Assembly (NCBI GenBank): GCA_016187945.1
Contig: JACPIT010000008.1
Coordinates: 1-64,000, forward strand
Direction: 5' to 3'
Length of the DNA: 64,000 nucleotides
DNA from: Opitutia bacterium
GTDB taxonomy: Bacteria; Verrucomicrobiota; Verrucomicrobiia; Opitutales; Opitutaceae
The first letter of the stretch is position 1, and the number at the start of each line of letters is the position of its first letter. The notes below the pieces were generated by a model. It had not been told where the DNA came from, ran no database searches, and was given only the letters and a program-made list of their open reading frames with translations. Of this stretch, positions 1,781-11,669 are shown piece by piece. Both the position numbers and the translations under genes were made by a program.

Positions 1781-3013
1781 CTAATTTTTCCGCCGCACTT
1801 CCACCTCCGGCAAAAACGCCGTCAGCAGCCCGATGAGCGGAAACCACGCCGCGACGTCGAACACCGTCGCGATGCTCGTGCGATCCGCCAGCCGCCCGAG
1901 CGACGCCGAGCCGATGCCCGCGGCGCCAAACGCGAGCCCGAAGAACAGCCCCGCGACCAGCCCCACGTTACCCGGCACGAGCTCCTGCGCGTAGACGAGG
2001 ATCGCCGAAAACGCCGACGCGAGGATCAGACCGATGATCACCGTCAGCACCACCGTCCCCGCGAGCCCCACGTGCGGCAGCGCCAGCGAGAACGGCGCCA
2101 CACCGAGAATCGAAATCCAGATCACGCGCTTGCGTCCGATGCGATCGCCCACCGGCCCGCCGACGATCGTGCCGGCCGCCACCGCGAACAGGAACACGAA
2201 CAGATAAACCTGCGACGCCTGCACCGAGACGTCGAATTTCCCGATCAGGTAGAACGTGTAATAGTTCGTCAGGCTGATCAGGTAGAAATATTTCGAGAAG
2301 ATCAGCGCGACCAAGACCGCGAGCGCCCACGCCACTTTGCCGCGGCTCAGTTTCACCGGCGTGAAATCGCCGTGCGATACCGGCCGCGGTTTCAGCCGAT
2401 GCATGTTCGCGCGATACCAGCCGCCAATCCGCGCCAGCAGAAAAATCCCCGCCAGCGCCGCGACCGTGAACCACAGGAGATGCGCCTGCCCGCGCGGGAT
2501 GATCACCGCCGCCGCCAGCAACGGCCCGAGCGACGTGCCGAAATTTCCGCCCACCTGAAACAGCGACTGCGCAAAACCATGCCGCCCGCCCGAAGCCATG
2601 CGCGCCACGCGCGACGCCTCCGGGTGGAACACCGCCGAGCCCACGCCCATCATCCCCGCCGCCAGCGCGAGCAGCGAAAACGAGTGCGCCTGCGACAACA
2701 GTGCCAGCCCGCCGAGCGTGAACCCCATGCCCACCGGCAGCGAATACGGATGCGGCCGCCGATCCGTGTAGAAGCCGACGACCGGCTGCAGCAGCGAGCC
2801 CGTGAGTTGATACGTCAACGTGATGAGCCCGATCTGCGTGAACGTCAGCCGATACGAGTCCTTCAGCAGCGGATAAATCGCCGGCAGCATCGCCTGGAAC
2901 GTGTCGTTGAGCAGATGCGCGATGCTCAACGCGAACAGGACATTCATGACGGTCGCGTGCGCGGCTGGCGCAGCGGCCGCCGCAGGCGCAGCGGTGCTCG
3001 GGCGTGGACTCAT
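1781..3013 (-). CDS. fsr: MFS transporter, fosmidomycin resistance protein type (Fsr)
   Basis: Inner-membrane major facilitator of 410 residues with about 12 hydrophobic segments. The first helices carry the family-typical pattern LSIAHLLNDTFQAMLPAIYP followed by FTQIGLITLTYQLTGSLLQP, which closely matches Fsr of Escherichia coli, a drug-efflux pump named for fosmidomycin resistance. A proline/alanine-rich N-terminus of about 20 residues precedes helix 1. The start is the ATG at 3013. The gene is monocistronic, convergent with the transposase and preceded by the tRNA-Leu gene on the same strand. The natural substrate cannot be told from sequence. Confidence 0.85.
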   Translation of the reverse strand: MSPRPSTAAPAAAAAPAAHATVMNVLFALSIAHLLNDTFQAMLPAIYPLLKDSYRLTFTQIGLITLTYQLTGSLLQPVVGFYTDRRPHPYSLPVGMGFTLGGLALLSQAHSFSLLALAAGMMGVGSAVFHPEASRVARMASGGRHGFAQSLFQVGGNFGTSLGPLLAAAVIIPRGQAHLLWFTVAALAGIFLLARIGGWYRANMHRLKPRPVSHGDFTPVKLSRGKVAWALAVLVALIFSKYFYLISLTNYYTFYLIGKFDVSVQASQVYLFVFLFAVAAGTIVGGPVGDRIGRKRVIWISILGVAPFSLALPHVGLAGTVVLTVIIGLILASAFSAILVYAQELVPGNVGLVAGLFFGLAFGAAGIGSASLGRLADRTSIATVFDVAAWFPLIGLLTAFLPEVEVRRKN

Positions 3014-3148
3014 GCGCGGCCACTAGCCGCGAACTCGCACCGCGAGTCAAGAAACCCGCCCGTTCTAGCAGCACCGTATGCCACAATCATTAGCCCGGCG
3101 CCGCCACCATGCCATCCGTCACGCAGACAGCGCAGACTGAAAACAAAA

Positions 3149-3233
3149 TGGTGCCCGGGACAGGACTTGAACCTGCACGTCTTTCGACACCAGATCCTAA
3201 GTCTGGCGTGTCTGCCAATTCCACCACCCGGGC
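3149..3233 (-). tRNA. tRNA-Leu (anticodon UAG)
   Basis: The minus strand folds as a class II tRNA. The acceptor arm GCCCGGG (3227-3233) pairs with CCCGGGC (3153-3159). The anticodon stem CCAGA/TCTGG encloses loop CTTAGGA with anticodon TAG. A long variable arm follows, then the T-loop GGTTCAAGTCC. Discriminator A and the CCA end are encoded. Length is 85 bases. It decodes CUA and wobble CUN codons. Confidence 0.95.
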
Positions 3234-3279
3234 GACGTGCGACAGATGGCTCGAATATCACCGGCAGGAAAGCCCAATC

Positions 3280-4167
3280 TCAAAGCCTGGCCAAATCGAT
3301 GGAATAGATCGTCGCTGCCGCCGTTCTCTGCGTCACAGTCAGTCCCCACAGATCTTGGCAGTCCGACTTAATGCGCCGCGCCTGCTGCTCAACCGTCATG
3401 CTGTTTCGCACAAAAGCTTTGCCACCCGCGATTCCGATTCGCTGCCGGGCGACACACTGCACGACCTTTTCGGGCACGAGCTCCGCCGCGACGGCATGAT
3501 CCATCGTTCGCAGCCACGCCTGGGCCACGCGGATCAAAGCGATGATCTCAGCGCACCCCGGGGCGAATATCCTGTGGGATGTGAAGTCGAGTTCGGCACC
3601 CGACAATTTACCGGACGCGAGCCAATGAGCGTTGAGTCGCGACCCAACGCTTTTGGTATGCGCCACGAAGCGCTCGGAGATGGTCTCGGCAGCATGTGCG
3701 TAATGATGCCGGCGAAGGCGGAGGTAGGTGAACGTTTCCCAGTGATGTCGATCGATCGCAGCATAGCCCGAATTCTTCCATGCTGCCTGAAATTTCGCTT
3801 CCGGAGACTTGCCTGCGGATTTTGAGGACCAGCCATGTCGGCCGCACTCAGCCAACAACGCCGGCACACTCACGAGGTAATCCAGAAAATTCTCGTAGAT
3901 GTCGACCAGCACCAGGCGATGCAGCGCCGACTCCAATCTGGTTCCAAATTCTCCCATCTGTGCGACCGCGACATTGAATCGGGCGGCGAATGGGTTTCCG
4001 CCGAAGAAATCGCCGGTCATAAGATTGGCCGCTCGCGCGGAAAGTCGGCTTCGGGAAACGCCGAGTTCGTGCTGTGAGAACTGGTGGAACCAAACCAAGT
4101 CGTTCGACACAGCGATTTGCTTCTCCAACGGACGAATCAACGGAGTGCGCATACGAGATACTGTCAT
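3280..4167 (-). CDS. Uncharacterised protein with a HEPN-like Rx4H motif
   Basis: I do not recognise this protein. From the ATG at 4167 it is 295 residues; the frame stays open further upstream to 4401, but that part overlaps the end of the psd gene. An alternative ATG is at 4152. The protein looks soluble and mostly helical, without signal peptide or membrane segment. Residues 149-159 read LRLRRHHYAHA, which contains RHHYAH, an exact fit to the R-[N/D/H]-x3-H signature of HEPN RNases, but one short motif can occur by chance. Base composition is visibly less GC-rich than both neighbours, and the gene sits just upstream of tRNA-Leu, which hints at transfer. A small nuclease, toxin or defence-type protein is possible but unproven. 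Confidence 0.55.
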   Translation of the reverse strand: MTVSRMRTPLIRPLEKQIAVSNDLVWFHQFSQHELGVSRSRLSARAANLMTGDFFGGNPFAARFNVAVAQMGEFGTRLESALHRLVLVDIYENFLDYLVSVPALLAECGRHGWSSKSAGKSPEAKFQAAWKNSGYAAIDRHHWETFTYLRLRRHHYAHAAETISERFVAHTKSVGSRLNAHWLASGKLSGAELDFTSHRIFAPGCAEIIALIRVAQAWLRTMDHAVAAELVPEKVVQCVARQRIGIAGGKAFVRNSMTVEQQARRIKSDCQDLWGLTVTQRTAAATIYSIDLARL

Positions 4168-4277
4168 TGGTTGTCCGATATGGTCGACAAAACTCCGGCG
4201 CACAGTTGCTCGGCGTGTTGTGCGCGGACGAAAAGCGACGCCGCGAATCTCTGCAAGTCTAGCAACGTCTCCGAAAA

Positions 4278-5216
4278 TTAGCCCGCCGCCACGCCGAGCC
4301 GCCCGCCCATCTTCGCGTAGACTTCGAGCTGGTTCGCGCTCTGCGCCACCAAATCGCGATCGAACGCGATCCGGCCCGGCCGGAAAATCGTCACGACGCA
4401 CGAGCCGCCGAAGCGGAAGAGCCCCTTTTCCTCGCCCTTCTTCACCGCCCGGTCCGCCAGATAGGACTGGAAGATCGTGCCGACCATCGTCGCGCCGATC
4501 TCACACACGGCGACGCGTCCGAACGCCGGCGAATCGACGAGCGTGATCATGCGCTTGTTCTCCCACAGGTAGCCGAGATTGCGCCGCAGGGCGATCGGCG
4601 ACACCGAATAGAGCCAGCCGTTGATCAGTCGCGCCTCGCCAGGCATGCCGCTCACCGGAAAATGAAAGCGGTGATAATCGACCGGGCACAGGCGCGAGAT
4701 CAGCAGCGACCCGCCGGCAAATTGCTTCGTCAGCGCACGCTCCGCCTCGGGCAGGTGCGCCTCGCCGAGAAACGACGCGAGGTCGAACCGCTGGCCCTTC
4801 GCGTAGAAACCGGCCGCGGCGTCGACGTTCTGAAACGCCAGGTGGCGCCCGTCCGCCGGCAGCACCGCGATGCGCTCGTCGTCCGCGGCGGCGATCGGGC
4901 GCGCGCCTTCCTTCAGTGCGCGGTAGAAAAATTCGTTGAACGATTTGAAGACGAACGGGCTCTTCGCGAACTCGTCGACGTCGAGACCATACTGGATGAT
5001 GAACGGCAGGATGCGCCGCGTGCTGTCCGCCATCGACATCCGCCAGCCGTAGTAGCGCGAGAGCCACGCGCGCTTGACGAGCAATTCGAGCGAGAGCCGG
5101 CCCGCGGTGTCGCCGTAGGTCCAGCGCAGCCATTTTTCGCCGTAGACGGTCTCTTTTTCGTGAACGTTCTTCTCACGATGGTAGTAATAAATGGGTTCCT
5201 CGGACATCGACGGCAT
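4278..5216 (-). CDS. psd: Phosphatidylserine decarboxylase proenzyme
   Basis: Makes phosphatidylethanolamine from phosphatidylserine at the inner membrane. The 312-residue proenzyme shows the family landmarks: ADGR (Asp122), DYHRFHFPVSG (His182) and a C-terminal FGGSC, where self-cleavage between Gly271 and Ser272 should create the pyruvoyl group on the small chain. Asp122-His182-Ser272 match the known processing triad. FGGSC takes the place of the LGST of proteobacterial enzymes. The start is ATG 5216; ATG 5207 is nearly as good. The gene stands alone between the orphan gene and the divergent YchJ-like gene. Confidence 0.93.
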   Translation of the reverse strand: MPSMSEEPIYYYHREKNVHEKETVYGEKWLRWTYGDTAGRLSLELLVKRAWLSRYYGWRMSMADSTRRILPFIIQYGLDVDEFAKSPFVFKSFNEFFYRALKEGARPIAAADDERIAVLPADGRHLAFQNVDAAAGFYAKGQRFDLASFLGEAHLPEAERALTKQFAGGSLLISRLCPVDYHRFHFPVSGMPGEARLINGWLYSVSPIALRRNLGYLWENKRMITLVDSPAFGRVAVCEIGATMVGTIFQSYLADRAVKKGEEKGLFRFGGSCVVTIFRPGRIAFDRDLVAQSANQLEVYAKMGGRLGVAAG

Positions 5217-5317
5217 GCGCCGCCAAGTTCACCCAAACCCGACGCGAGGCAAAGGAAGAAAGCGCCGGAGTGATTGAGGATTGCTTTCCGGGCCCATTCC
5301 CCGGCTAACCTCCCGGC

Positions 5318-5809
5318 ATGAGTCTCTGCCCTTGTGGTTCCGGTCAAAACTTCGACGCCTGCTGCGGCCCGATCCTCGCCGGCGCGCCGGCGCCGACCGC
5401 CGAAGCGCTGATGCGCTCGCGCTACACCGCGCACGTGAAACACGACCTCGCGCACCTCGAGCGTTCGCTCAGCGCCGACCAGCGCAAGACCTTCGACGCC
5501 GCCGCGGCGAAGCGGTGGTCCGAGCAATCCGAGTGGATCGGCCTCACGATCGTGCACACGGAAAAAGGCGGCCCGGACGACGACATCGGCGCCGTGCAAT
5601 TCACGGCCAAGTTCAAAATGGACGGCAACGAGCATGAGCACGTCGAGGCGGCGCTCTTCGGTCGCGAGGATGGCCGCTGGGTCTACACCGGCCAGGTCGA
5701 CGGCCCCGGCACCACTTATCGTCGCGAGCAGCCGAAAGTCGGTCGCAACGACCCGTGCCCCTGCGGCAGCGGCAAGAAATACAAAAAGTGCTGCGGCGCC
5801 GCCGCGTGA
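5318..5809 (+). CDS. YchJ-like (UPF0225) protein with two SEC-C zinc motifs
   Basis: A 163-residue soluble protein. It opens with CPCGSG...CC and ends with a second [13 protein letters not shown], both SEC-C zinc-binding motifs of the kind found at the end of SecA. The middle holds the YchJ core with [13 protein letters not shown] near residue 30 and a small mixed beta-sheet domain related to the NTF2 fold. The cellular role of the family is unknown; the zinc motifs suggest protein or nucleic acid contact. The upstream region is shared with the divergent psd gene. Confidence 0.88.
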
Positions 5810-5851
5810 TTTGCCGCTGACGGCGGGTGTCGCGCGTGCTGTGCTGCGCGG

Positions 5852-6238
5852 ATGGACACCTCCTTTGCGCGCCTCTGGCTCCGCCTCGAAGGCCTCGCGG
5901 CCCTCGCGCTCGCCGCGCTGCTCTACCGCCACTTCGGCCTGAGCTGGCTCTGGTTCGCCGTGCTCCTGCTCGCACCCGATTTGTCGCTGCTCGGCTATCT
6001 GGGCGGTGCGCGCGTCGGCGCCTGGTGCTACAACCTCGCGCATACCTACGCCATCGCCGGCCTCGTGCTCGCGGCGGGATTGCTCGCGCCGCTCGCCAGC
6101 GCGCCGCGCCCCGCGCTCGTCGGCATCGGCCTCATCTGGTGCGCGCACATCGGCCTCGATCGCGCGCTCGGTTACGGCCTGAAATCTCCCGCGGGATTCC
6201 GCTTCACCCACCTCGGAAAGATCGGCCGCGAGAACTGA
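5852..6238 (+). CDS. DUF4260-like membrane protein
   Basis: A 128-residue, very hydrophobic protein with about four membrane segments. Features of the DUF4260 family include [12 protein letters not shown] after the second segment, YNLAHTYA before the third, and a C-terminal [13 protein letters not shown] followed by FTHLGKIG. The function is unknown. It starts 42 bases after the SEC-C gene in the same direction and ends 4 bases before the convergent ClC gene, so the two genes meet almost tail to tail. Confidence 0.8.
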
Positions 6239-6241
6239 ACT

Positions 6242-7570
6242 TCACGCCGCCGCGCGCGCGGGCACCGGCCGGCTGCGCAACCGGAGCGCCTCGTAGATCG
6301 GCGTGTTGCCGAGCGCCTCGGCGACGCCGTAGGCCGTGAGGCACGCCACGAGCAGCGGCAGCATGAAACCGTAGACGCCGGTCAGCTCGATCATCAGCAC
6401 AATGCCGGTCAGCGGCGCGCGGACGATCGCGGTGAACATCGCGCCCATTCCGAGCACGCAGAAGACCGCGGGCGTCAACTCGGTCGCGCTGTGCGGCATC
6501 ACCGCATGCACCCCGACGCCGAACAGCAACCCGCCGAGCGCACCGAGACCGAGCAACGGCGCGAAAATCCCGCCCGCCGCACCCGAGCTGTAGCTCACCA
6601 TCGTCAGGCAAAACCGCGCCACGATGAACAACGGCAGCACGCCGAGCGCGATCTGTCCCGCCAGCGCGCTTTGCACCAATGGCCCGCCGGATCCCTCCAA
6701 TCCCGGAACCAGCCAGCCGGCGAGCCCCACGATCGCACCGACCGCCGCGCCGAGCGCCCACGCCGGCCAGAGCACCACGCGGTCGCGGAAATCGAGCGTC
6801 ATCAGCAACGCCCGGTTGAAAAACACCCCGAATACGCCCGCGCACACACCGAGCAACGCAGCCCACGGCACCGTCGCCACGCCGGGTGCGATCATGCCGC
6901 TCAAATGAAACACTGGCAGCTCGTTCGTGAGCAGCCGCGCCACAACGTCGCCCGACACCGAAGCGAGGAACGCCGCCACGAACATCACCGGCGTGAAATT
7001 CCCGTGCAATTCCTCGAGCACGAACACCACGCCGGAGAGCGGCGCGTTGAACGCCGCCCCGAGCCCCGCGCCCGCACCTGCGCTCATCAACGCGCGCCGC
7101 TCGCCCTCGCCTTCGCGAATGCGGAATCACTCCGAAACCATGTGCCCGATGCCGCTGCCCATCTGCACCGTCGGACCTTCGCGTCCGAGCGCAAACCCGC
7201 CGCCGGTCGTCAGCAAGCCGCCGAAAAATTTTACCGGCAACAGGCGACGCCATTCCGGTTCAGATTCGCGGAGCAAAATCGATTTCAATTGCGGAATGCC
7301 GCTGCCGGACGCGTGGGGCGCGAACCGCCGCACCAGCCAGACACCGAGCGCGCCCATCAACACGCCGAGCCCGAGCGCGACGGGCAGCCCCCAATGTCCC
7401 GCGCGCGCCACCGCCGCCGCCCGGAGGTGCTCCGCGTGTTCGAGCGCGAGGCGGAACGCCGATGCCAGCACGCCCGCGACCGCACCGACGACGACCGCCT
7501 TCACCACGATGTGCCGGCGTTTCACTTCTCCAGCGCTCAGACCGGAACTGTCGTCAGGCGTGATCTGCAT
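6242..7570 (-). pseudogene. ClC-type chloride channel/antiporter interrupted by an in-frame TGA
   Basis: Reads as a single ClC protein of about 442 codons interrupted by TGA at 7127-7129. Both halves are in the same frame, so no indel is involved. The first part (147 residues) carries the selectivity-filter GSGIP and the gating-Glu motif GREGP. After the stop come FRIREGEGERR and LMSAGAGAGLGAAFNAPLSG, then VFVLEEL with the proton-path Glu typical of Cl-/H+ exchangers, and GGIFAP. In E. coli ClcA the corresponding position is followed by Phe-Arg as here, so a TGG (Trp) to TGA change is the simplest reading. It may be a real nonsense mutation, a sequencing error, or a split gene restarting at ATG 7087. 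Confidence 0.85.
7127..7129 (-). other. In-frame TGA codon within the ClC gene
   Basis: On the minus strand the codons read ATG GTT TCG GAG TGA TTC CGC ATT. Homology continues on both sides in the same frame. Other genes here end in TGA, so reassignment of UGA to Trp is unlikely. Confidence 0.85.
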
Positions 7571-7709
7571 GGCGTCATGGAGCGCGGCCGCGCGCCCGTT
7601 TTCAAGGGCAACCTGCGTGCGAGCGCGTCAGCGGGGTTCGGGGTTTCGCCGGGGGCATGTGACGGTTTCGCCGTTTGCGTCCCCTGGGCTCCCGGCTACG
7701 CTCCGCGCC

Positions 7710-8867
7710 ATGGAAAATTTCGTCTTTCAGAACCCCACTCGCATCCTCTTCGGCCGCGGACAAATCGCCGCGCTGGCCACCGAACTCCCCGCCGATGCCC
7801 GCGTGCTCCTCCTCGCCGGCGGCGGCAGCATCAAGGAAAACGGCGTCCACGCGCAGGTCGTGAAGGCGCTCGGCGCGCGCACGGTCCGCGAATTTTGGGG
7901 CGTCGAAGCCAACCCCGACTACGACACGCTCATGCGCGCCGTGGAAATCGTGAAGACCGAGAAGCTCGACTGGATTCTCCCGGTCGGCGGCGGCTCGGTG
8001 CTCGACGGCGCGAAATTCGTCGCCGCCGCCGCTCTCTACGATCGCGATCCATGGACGATCCTCACTACGCGCGCCGCGCACGTGACCGCCGCCCTGCCGA
8101 TCGGCGCCGTGCTCACGCTGCCCGCCACCGGCTCCGAGGCCAACGGCGCGTCCGTCGTGTCCCGCCGCGCGATCAAAGAGAAACTCGCGTTCATCTCGCC
8201 GCACGTGTTCCCGCGCTTTTCCATCCTCGATCCGGAGACGACTTTCTCGCTCCCGACGCGCCAGGTCGCCAACGGCATCGGCGACGCGTTCTGCCACGTC
8301 ATCGAGCAATACCTGACCTTCCCGGCCCATGCGCGCGTGCAGGACCGTTTTGCCGAAGGCATTCTCCGCACGCTCGTCGAGATCGGCCCGCGCACGCTCT
8401 CGCATCCGACCGACTACGACACGCGCGCCAACTTCGTCTGGGCCGCCACCACCGCGCTCAACGGCTGGATCTCCGTCGGCGTGCCGCAGGACTGGGCCAC
8501 GCACATCATCGGTCACGAGCTCACCGCGCTGCACGGCATCGACCACGCGCGCACGCTCGCCATCGTGTTGCCCGAACTGCTCAATGCCGAACGCGTCGCC
8601 AAGCGCGCCAAGCTCCTCCAATACGCCGAGCGTGTCTGGGATCTGCGCGACGGCAGCGAAGACGCCCGCATCGACGCCGCGATCGCGAAGACGCGCGCGT
8701 TCTACGAATCGCTCGGCATCAAGACGCGCCTCGCCGACTACGACGTGCCCGTCGCCACCGCAGCGGAAGTCGCCCGCCGCCTCGCCGCGCGCGGCATGAG
8801 CGCCTTCGGCGACCGCGGTCTCATCACGCCCGCGAAGGTCGAGCATATCCTCCGCGCCGCGGCGTGA
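7710..8867 (+). CDS. yqhD: NADPH-dependent aldehyde reductase / iron-type alcohol dehydrogenase (YqhD)
   Basis: Reduces a broad range of short aldehydes with NADPH in the cytoplasm. The 385-residue product aligns from end to end with E. coli YqhD: PTRILFGRG near the N-terminus, two dinucleotide-binding glycine motifs (GGGS at about 32 and VGGGSVLDG at about 92), LTLPATGSEAN, and the metal-ligand region GHELTALHGIDHART. The start at ATG 7710 matches the family N-terminus; the frame is open far upstream, but that part is antisense to the ClC gene. It is monocistronic, followed by a large hairpin repeat. Such enzymes detoxify aldehydes under oxidative stress. Confidence 0.94.
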   Translation: MENFVFQNPTRILFGRGQIAALATELPADARVLLLAGGGSIKENGVHAQVVKALGARTVREFWGVEANPDYDTLMRAVEIVKTEKLDWILPVGGGSVLDGAKFVAAAALYDRDPWTILTTRAAHVTAALPIGAVLTLPATGSEANGASVVSRRAIKEKLAFISPHVFPRFSILDPETTFSLPTRQVANGIGDAFCHVIEQYLTFPAHARVQDRFAEGILRTLVEIGPRTLSHPTDYDTRANFVWAATTALNGWISVGVPQDWATHIIGHELTALHGIDHARTLAIVLPELLNAERVAKRAKLLQYAERVWDLRDGSEDARIDAAIAKTRAFYESLGIKTRLADYDVPVATAAEVARRLAARGMSAFGDRGLITPAKVEHILRAAA

Positions 8868-9224
8868 GGTGCCCGTTCCTCCTGTAGCGGCGGCCTATGA
8901 CCGCCGAGCGAATGTCACGCCACGCTCGACTCGGCGGTCATAGACCGCCGCTACAGCCGATCGGTGGGATGGGCATCCCGCCCCGACGTTGAACGCGCGC
9001 CAGGCGTCGGGGCAACAGGCTCCATCCACCGCGCGACCGTGCCGCTCGGACGGCAGGGCGCGGACTCCGCTTCGCGCCGAGTTTCTCCGTTGGGCGCCGC
9101 AAGACTGCGCGCGTCCCACCGGCCGCCGCGTTTCGGCGGCGAAGGGACTCGCCGCCCTGCCTCGGCGGTCACCCTTCAACATCAAGCCGCTCCCACCAAG
9201 CGACCGCACGCGCCCCACTCGTCC
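8868..9224. other. Intergenic repeat-bearing stretch
   Basis: About 360 bases without a supported gene. It begins with the long hairpin repeat at 8882-8956. Beyond it is GC-rich sequence with further self-complementary patches (gggatgggcatcccgcccc near 8966, and gccgccgcgtttcggcggc near 9122). It separates yqhD from the convergent histidine kinase gene, so a transcription-ending role is possible, though no T-run is present. Confidence 0.6.
8882..8956. repeat. Long inverted repeat (27-base arms), hairpin family 1
   Basis: The left arm starts ctgtagcggcgg (8882-8908) and the right arm ends ccgccgctacag (8930-8956). The arms are reverse complements at 26 of 27 positions, the mismatch allowing a G-U pair, around a loop of about 21 bases. 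The terminal GTAG/CTAC is shared with the other hairpins of this window. It looks like a dispersed intergenic repeat of REP or MITE type. Confidence 0.85.
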
Positions 9225-11669
9225 TCACTCCCGATTCACCGCACACCCGGCCACGGCTTCTGCGACGATGCTCAATGAAAACGGTTTCGGCACGAGGCGC
9301 GCCACGCGCAGCTTCGTCGCTTCGATTTCCTCGGCCTCGGTGAAAAATCCGCTCGCCAGCAGCACCGGCTGCGTCGGGCGCAGAGTCTTTATGCGCGCCG
9401 TGAGTTGCAGACCGTTCATGCCGGGCATCGTGAGGTCGGTGAACACCGCGGCGAAATCCGCCGGGCGCGCCTCGAATTCCGCGAGCGCCATCTCCGCGCG
9501 CTCGAACGCGCAGGGGCGGTAGCCGAGTTGCGCGAGGATTTCGCGCGTCGTGCTCAGCACGACGTCGTCATCGTCGACCACGAGGACTTCCTGCCCGCGT
9601 CCGCGCGGCAGCTCAAAGGGCGATTTCGATTTCGTCGGCACATCGCTCGCCGCCGCGGGCAGGTAGACGTTGAACAGCGTGCCACGCCCCGGCTGGCTGT
9701 AGACGGTGACGGCGCCACCGTGCTGTTGGACGATGCCGTGCACGACCGACAAACCGAGACCGGTGCCCTCGCCCGGCGCCTTCGTCGTGAAAAACGGCTC
9801 GAACACTCGCGCGACCACCTCGGGCGCCATGCCGGGGCCGTCGTCCTGGATGCCGACGCGCACGTAGCGTCCGGGTGCGAGCGCGACGGGTTTCGGCGAG
9901 TCCGCGGCGGTCACCTCCAGCACGTCGACGAGGAAGATCACGTGCCCGCCGACGCCGCGCAGCGCCTGCACGGCGTTCGTGCCGATGTTCATGAACACCT
10001 GGTGCGCCTGCGCCGGGTCGGCAAAAATCGGTGGAGTCTCGCCCGTCAGCCGCATCTCGAACGCCACCGCGCCGCGCCCGAGCACGCGGAGGAATTCCGT
10101 CGTCTCCTTCAACAGCGGCGCGATCTCGACGGGTTGTCGCGCCGACTCCGCACGCCGGGAGAACGCGAGGATCTGCTGCACGAGCTGGCGCGCCCGCCGC
10201 GCTGCGCGCATCACCTGCTGGAGTCCGTCGTGTTCGGGGCGCGAGGTCGGAAGCGAAAGCAGGCTGAGCTCGGTGTGGCCGAGGATCGCCGTGAGGACGT
10301 TGTTGAAGTCGTGCGCGATGCCGCCGGCGAGCGTGCCGATCGCCTCGAGTTTCTGCGCCTGCATCAACCGCTGCTCCTGCTGGCGCAACTGCTGGCGCGC
10401 CCGCACCTGTTCGGTGATGTCGCCGAGCGAAACCAGCACCGACCGGCCGAGCGGCCCGACCGTCACGCGCCACCAGCCGGCCGCGTCCGCTTTTTCGTAT
10501 TCGAAGCTGTGCACGCCGTTCGGCGCGGCCGCCTCGGCCAGCTTCGCCGCCAGCGCCGCCTCGGCGCCCAGCAGCGGCGTCAACGGCGCGCCCGGAGCCG
10601 GCAACGCGCGCAAGCCCAGCAGCCGCACGCCCGCCGGATTGATGCGGCGCACGCGAAGGTTTTCCGCACCGTCGCGGTCGAGCACCAGCAATCCGTCGTA
10701 GGCGCCGTCGAACACCGCGCGAATCTCCTCCGACTTCCGCACCAGTCGCGCCTGCATCCGCCGCAGCCGCCAGACCGCCCACAGTGCCACGAGCAGCGCC
10801 ACCACGAGCCCGGCCGCCACCGCCATCATCACTGCGAGCGCACTGTAGCCGCTCGGCTCGAGGTGACCGAACCACTGGCGGTAAATTTCGCCGAACCGCC
10901 CCGTGCGCTCGAGAATCGCGAGGCCTTCGTTGATCCTCGCGAGCAACTCGCGGTCGCCCGACTGCACGGCGTAACAATACTGGACGCTGTAGCCCGGCAC
11001 GTCGCCCTCGAGCACGCGCAGGTTCTTCACGCCGAGGTGATGCGCCAGCGCGAGTCCGCTCAGCCGGCTCACGAGCGTGGCGTCCGCCTCGCCGCGCGCG
11101 ACGGCGCGCACGGCCTCCTCGACGGAGTCGACCGTGAAGATCGATTGGTCGAGCTTCGCGCGCCGCAGGATGGTTTCGCCGAGGCTGCCGCGATGCACGG
11201 CCACGCGTTTCCCGCGACAATCCTCCAGCGAAGCGATGCGCTTCTCCTCGGCGCGCACGAAGAGCGCCCCCGCCATCGTCATGTAGGGAATCGAGAAATC
11301 CACCTCGCGCTCCCGCTCGGGGAACCGCGCGTAGGCTTGCAGCACGTCGAGCTGTCGCGCCTTGAACTGCTCGTGCACTTCGCGCGTGCGGCCGGTGACG
11401 CGCTCGAAGCGCAGTCCCATCACCGCCTCGATCTCGCGCGTCAGATCGACCGCGAAGCCCGCCATCGTGCCGTCCGCCTGGCGAAACGAGAACGGGTAAT
11501 TGTCGTCGAGCATCCCGACGCGGCTCGTCGGCGGAGCGACGGCAATGTCGGCGCGCACGAGGCAAAATCCCGCCAGAAGGGCCGTGAGCCAGACGAGTCT
11601 CCGCACGAGAGTCACCGCGGCACGCAAGCGGGAGACGTTGCGGATTTCAATCCGTCGTTTTGGCAACAA
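9225..11669 (-). CDS. Hybrid sensor histidine kinase with periplasmic solute-binding sensor domain
   Basis: An inner-membrane signalling protein of up to 814 residues. Order: signal/anchor segment about 20-40, type 3 extracellular solute-binding domain about 48-268, membrane helix about 273-298, PAS-like region about 315-425, dimerisation helix with the phosphorylated His453 in GGIAHDFNNVLTAI, ATPase domain with N-box around Asn565 and the glycine motifs DDGPGM and GTGLGLS, and a C-terminal receiver with Asp745 in FTDLTMPGMNG. The binding domain resembles amino-acid-type binding proteins, so a small-molecule ligand is likely. No ATG fits: the frame opens at TTG 11669, while GTG 11615 gives a compact signal peptide and may be the true start. 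No partner response regulator is adjacent. Confidence 0.9.
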   Translation of the reverse strand: MLPKRRIEIRNVSRLRAAVTLVRRLVWLTALLAGFCLVRADIAVAPPTSRVGMLDDNYPFSFRQADGTMAGFAVDLTREIEAVMGLRFERVTGRTREVHEQFKARQLDVLQAYARFPEREREVDFSIPYMTMAGALFVRAEEKRIASLEDCRGKRVAVHRGSLGETILRRAKLDQSIFTVDSVEEAVRAVARGEADATLVSRLSGLALAHHLGVKNLRVLEGDVPGYSVQYCYAVQSGDRELLARINEGLAILERTGRFGEIYRQWFGHLEPSGYSALAVMMAVAAGLVVALLVALWAVWRLRRMQARLVRKSEEIRAVFDGAYDGLLVLDRDGAENLRVRRINPAGVRLLGLRALPAPGAPLTPLLGAEAALAAKLAEAAAPNGVHSFEYEKADAAGWWRVTVGPLGRSVLVSLGDITEQVRARQQLRQQEQRLMQAQKLEAIGTLAGGIAHDFNNVLTAILGHTELSLLSLPTSRPEHDGLQQVMRAARRARQLVQQILAFSRRAESARQPVEIAPLLKETTEFLRVLGRGAVAFEMRLTGETPPIFADPAQAHQVFMNIGTNAVQALRGVGGHVIFLVDVLEVTAADSPKPVALAPGRYVRVGIQDDGPGMAPEVVARVFEPFFTTKAPGEGTGLGLSVVHGIVQQHGGAVTVYSQPGRGTLFNVYLPAAASDVPTKSKSPFELPRGRGQEVLVVDDDDVVLSTTREILAQLGYRPCAFERAEMALAEFEARPADFAAVFTDLTMPGMNGLQLTARIKTLRPTQPVLLASGFFTEAEEIEATKLRVARLVPKPFSLSIVAEAVAGCAVNRE

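Follow-up and report, generated by a model that had tools for sequence, protein, structure and literature searches.

An in-frame TGA in a ClcA-type ClC antiporter gene of an Opitutaceae bacterium, probably a recent nonsense mutation

The interrupted gene and its surroundings

The stretch of DNA analysed here, referred to below as the window, comprises 64,000 nucleotides of an Opitutia bacterium (Opitutaceae; assembly GCA_016187945.1, contig JACPIT010000008.1, positions 1 to 64,000) and is part of contig C14 in our numbering; the genome is of 5.47 Mb in 16 contigs and is 95.69% complete. The ClC gene runs from 7570 to 6242 on the minus strand, a frame of 442 codons that starts with ATG at 7570-7568, ends with TGA at 6244-6242 and is interrupted once, by the TGA of codon 148, its sole internal stop, which is followed by a T. 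The features of the locus are as follows.

7127..7570, minus strand: N-terminal ClC piece of 147 codons, from the ATG to the premature TGA; contains GSGIP and E131 of GREGP (frame translation, Pfam)
7127..7129, minus strand: premature TGA at codon 148 of the frame, opposite V165 of Salmonella ClC (1kpl) and between GREGP and the FNAPLSG stretch (alignment)
6242..7126, minus strand: downstream ClC piece with E186/E187, GGIFAP and Y426, ending at the TGA at 6242-6244 (frame translation, Pfam)
7085..7090, minus strand: candidate restart codons, TTG at 7088-7090 and ATG at 7085-7087, in conserved coding sequence (sequence read by eye)
5852..6238, plus strand: flanking gene, DUF4260, within a syntenic block common to the congeneric genomes G007 and G001 (domain match)
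7711..8867, plus strand: flanking gene, iron-containing alcohol dehydrogenase, with the ATG at 7711 read by eye and the listed open reading frame starting at 6927 (domain match)

Translated through the stop, the frame matches the Pfam family Voltage_CLC over profile positions 2-345 of 346, with 316.1 bits against a cut-off of 24.8, and the two pieces taken alone match it in register, with 77.4 bits (profile 2-74) and 216.7 bits (profile 90-345). The motifs GSGIP (residues 89-93) and GREGP (129-133) lie upstream of the stop, and EEL (186-188, inside VFVLEEL), GGIFAP (333-338) and Y426 lie downstream; hence the first piece is devoid of E187, GGIFAP and Y426, and the second of GSGIP and E131. An earlier sequence-only reading, which did not give the strand, described an in-frame TGA splitting an otherwise intact ClC gene, with GSGIP and GREGP before the stop and VFVLEEL and GGIFAP after it in the same frame, and this description is confirmed; the ATG that it named at 7087 is also present, with a TTG one codon upstream.

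The structures closest to the query are ClcA-type transporters, namely 1kpl (Salmonella), 1ots (EcClC) and 3nd0 (Sll0855). Residues 21-433 of the query align to 35-452 of 1kpl (E 2.2e-80), and by hand count in this alignment E131, E187 and Y426 correspond to E148, E203 and Y445, respectively. E148 and E203 of EcClC/StClC are the gating and proton glutamates, both present in Cl-/H+ exchangers. Since both glutamates and the tyrosine align, the product is probably a Cl-/H+ antiporter rather than the channel named in the sequence-only reading. Residues E131, E186 and E187 are kept in all 30 aligned ClC copies, and the ion-binding Y426 in 29, the remaining copy being gapped where a contig end cuts the gene. 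GSGIP, GREGP, EE, GGIFAP and the tyrosine are all common to the query and the ClcA-type antiporters (1ots, 1kpl, 3nd0), from which the query differs in that its frame alone is interrupted: in place of the single uninterrupted chain of a ClC antiporter, it has TGA at codon 148.

Several other features were observed in the window. A plus-strand open frame of 646 amino acids (6927-8867) is antisense to the 5' portion of the ClC gene and continues in the same frame as the alcohol dehydrogenase; upstream of the latter it is probably open by chance, owing to high GC. Contig C14 opens with a DDE group 1 transposase (76-1383) and may break at a repeated element; a tRNA-Leu gene is found nearby (3149-3233). 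GH26 glycosidases and sulfatases, clustered together with a GMC oxidoreductase at 18688-47898, are possibly a polysaccharide-use locus; they lie in a segment (12969-56271) that has no DNA match of at least 700 bases to the 260 kb of G007 compared.

The ClC gene in related genomes

The family search covered 252 genomes at E <= 1e-60 and yielded 35 matches, including the one in this genome. None of the other 34 contains an internal stop, three of them being partial matches that span the site, and so the premature stop is absent from the intact orthologs. One of the 34, G176, was flagged as a second stopped ortholog on account of a TAG and rejected, as the alignment shows this TAG to be the normal gene end. 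Among the 30 aligned copies, the site is occupied by TGG in 23, CTG in two, TTG in two, and GTG, GCC and TGA in one each, TGA being found here only; that is, by Trp in 23, Leu in four, Val in one, Ala in one, and a stop in one. These counts omit G117, G201, G197 and G069 (the last three partial, all four listed without a stop), L087 from G088 (shortened by trimming close to its contig end, and TGG when examined by itself), L086 from G259 (on the same contig as L034, which is counted as CTG) and L037 (TGG; a possible duplicate of another copy), and L035 and L036, being contigs of L007 and L006, were counted once. Further broken-looking ClC matches were seen at G018:C16:106414-107253 (TAG inside), G011:C9:16728-17087 (one TGA and two TAA inside) and G028:C54:54491-54821 (two adjacent fragments of the C-terminal part).

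The closest relative, G007 (88% identity), a member of the same genus, has its ClC gene undamaged at this locus, with CTG at the site. The closest intact outgroup, L085 (from G176), has TGG. Both FastTree trees pair G007 with the window gene as its sister, followed by L085; support for the two nodes is 0.993 and 0.996 with protein sequences, and 1.000 and 0.984 with nucleotides. Because L085 branches next after the window gene and G007, we infer from the tree that a TGG ancestor and a single step to TGA form the shortest path, despite CTG in G007. The sequence-only reading had placed a single TGG to TGA change at a site of bulky residues. This is mostly right in view of the residues counted above, with the single step resting on the tree; its possible refutation, a split common to all relatives, was not observed.

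A different state is found in G001, from the same genus, whose matches to the window keep their order over 1791-11556 and further to 12959. In the DNA comparison, the 1182 bases of window 6360-7541 are represented there by 21 bases. The remnant is open, 54 codons long (L039, G001:C11:250000-268000, positions 9029-9193, minus strand), and joins three parts in one frame: roughly the first 10 codons, some 10 codons around GVFAPLL that resemble AAGGIFAPLL, and the C-terminal end. Apparently, two in-frame deletions reduced the gene to this remnant at its original locus, and since the joints coincide with SSG and PLL repeats of the intact protein, the comparison suggests that the sequence between short repeats was deleted. 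In the ten remaining genomes of the genus, several of them incomplete, there was no ClC match at E <= 1e-60. In the genome analysed here, two further ClC genes match the Pfam family and have no stops.

Selection, base rate and decoding of the stop

Compared with G007, the interrupted frame has a dN/dS of 0.18 before the stop and of 0.11 after it. The lineage ratio of nonsynonymous to synonymous changes is 19:65 in the window copy versus 31:39 in G007 with five outgroups including L085 (p = 0.006), 23:69 versus 31:46 with L085 as the only outgroup (p = 0.046), and 18:55 versus 26:41 with outgroups other than L085 (p = 0.10), so that in all three comparisons the window copy has fewer nonsynonymous changes than G007. 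At 125 positions where all other aligned copies agree, the window gene agrees with them in 124 and differs in one, with Ile for Val. Thus, no relaxed selection or decay is seen in the stopped copy in these counts, which take in all changes since the divergence from G007 and in which a recent stop would leave no trace, nor would a tolerated stop or a sequence error. Dating a neutral period of the gene by these ratios was uninformative, the sibling G007 having the higher one. Unrelaxed selection on the stopped copy leaves three options for the stop: a recent origin, an error of base calling, or toleration by the cell.

How common such interruptions are was assessed by a crude screen of open reading frames of at least 120 amino acids, non-coding frames included. 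When those of G007 were compared with 326 kb of this genome, an internal stop flanked by well-conserved sequence was seen in two of 91: the ClC gene and a frame of 131 amino acids, which was set aside as non-coding, being stopped at the same residue in G001. Comparison of G001 with this genome gave one stopped frame out of 54, likewise set aside as non-coding because a third genome has its stop at this residue too, and the reverse screens gave raw counts of six stops toward G007 and 15 toward G001. As the ClC gene alone is convincingly interrupted among the 91 frames, its interruption is more than chance.

Dedicated decoding of the TGA was sought at several levels. SelA has no match in the genome, and SelB none above the cut-off. 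Matches to the tRNA-Sec family RF01852 exceeded the cut-off in all nine genomes searched, and were rejected as candidates: in the three genomes checked by ARAGORN they are tRNA-Ser(UGA), as is the best match in this genome. ARAGORN detected no tRNA-Sec in 40 tRNA loci, and no UCA anticodon appeared among 41 tRNAs (the 40 scanned as loci plus tRNA-Leu of the window; the tallies of the ARAGORN scan itself include some tRNAs twice where flanks overlap and do not equal gene numbers, and in a genome 95.69% complete a tRNA may be missing). Reassignment of UGA or a suppressor tRNA was therefore rejected as far as visible. Release factor RF2 is present, above the cut-off. The tRNA-Trp carries the anticodon CCA, and its anticodon stem has five pairs, of which the outer one is G-U; a four-pair stem has been linked to UGA readthrough (PMC13092985). 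RNA folding at and after the stop is no better than that of shuffled sequence (z 0.29, -0.25, 0.49).

Origin and consequences of the stop

Taken together, these data probably reflect a recent nonsense mutation in an expendable gene for a ClcA-type Cl-/H+ antiporter, that is, an incipient pseudogene. A substitution of TGG by TGA would interrupt the gene, translation would end after 147 residues, ahead of E187, GGIFAP and Y426, and the complete ion path would not be made; we infer both the recency of the stop and the loss of function. The gene is dispensable in the genus, since G001 has lost it at this locus by deletion and this genome retains two other ClC genes free of stops. Two observations go against a nonsense mutation, namely that the undecayed frame would fit a gene maintained by leaky readthrough equally well, and that the sibling codon in G007 is CTG and not TGG.

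The stop is known from the assembled sequence, with which a base-call or assembly error in a strain whose ClC gene is intact is compatible, if unlikely. The substitution stands alone, unaccompanied by further damage or by relaxed selection, and the assembly is a draft in 16 contigs; on the other hand, the 91 frames compared with G007 contain no other convincingly interrupted gene, which argues against a general error problem there as far as internal stops are concerned, and a gene deleted in G001 is expendable. Somewhat less likely is a tolerated leaky stop, at which near-cognate tRNA-Trp(CCA) would misread UGA and insert Trp, yielding a little full-length antiporter. It would accord with Trp being the commonest residue at the site and with the well-conserved downstream frame, and in-frame stops with dN/dS below 1 are described as widespread in bacterial genes by Belinky et al., 2021 (PMC7918605). 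As in the cases treated there, we see a single in-frame stop in a conserved gene with dN/dS well below 1; that work concentrated on stops common to at least two species, whereas the stop here is private. The five-pair stem of tRNA-Trp, the lack of a UCA anticodon among the tRNAs found, the presence of RF2, the ordinary fold around the stop and its absence from all 34 relatives, where a programmed readthrough site would be conserved, speak against it. With still lower probability, the TGA might be retained as a dimmer of expression, Trp misreading supplying a low dose of functional antiporter and keeping the gene under selection.

A split antiporter, in which the piece of 147 amino acids would assemble with a second chain started at 7090 or 7087, appears highly improbable. 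The second piece has in-frame start codons and covers profile positions 90-345, and the stop sits between GREGP and the next conserved stretch, but the split is common to none of the 34 family matches. The sequence upstream of 7087 is conserved coding sequence with no private ribosome-binding site (by eye, none in the 39 bases before the ATG that is new compared with G007), and a restart there would leave out everything from the stop to the ATG, 13 residues in all, among them the conserved GEGER stretch. CLC-1 and ClC-5 have reportedly been reconstituted from complementary fragments, in work ascribed to Schmidt-Rose and Jentsch (1997) and Mo et al. (2004). A working two-piece ClC is thus possible in principle; here, no relative among the 34 is split and the second chain is putative. 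Selenocysteine at the site, or reassignment of UGA to Trp, is barely conceivable: the position of the TGA inside a conserved frame is the sole point in favor, and against it stand the lack of a SelA match, of a SelB match above the cut-off and of a tRNA-Sec among the loci scanned, all of them expected with a selenoprotein, the presence of Trp, Leu, Val and Ala in the relatives where Cys would be expected, as well as RF2 and the termination of the same gene in TGA. Accordingly, of the four interpretations offered in the sequence-only reading, a recent nonsense mutation is the best supported (a private stop, TGG in L085, no decay), and sequence error keeps the place given above; the restart at 7087 is weakened, and readthrough in the form of dedicated recoding finds no support.

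An open-access literature search joining Opitutaceae, ClC and chloride found no papers. The finding has little to offer beyond an example of early gene loss, unless the stop proves to be read through, and tolerated low-level readthrough would be the most interesting reading left. Under a recent nonsense mutation, one locus in one genus would be seen in three states, intact in G007, stopped in the genome analysed here (G000) and mostly deleted in G001, the stopped copy representing an early step of gene loss.
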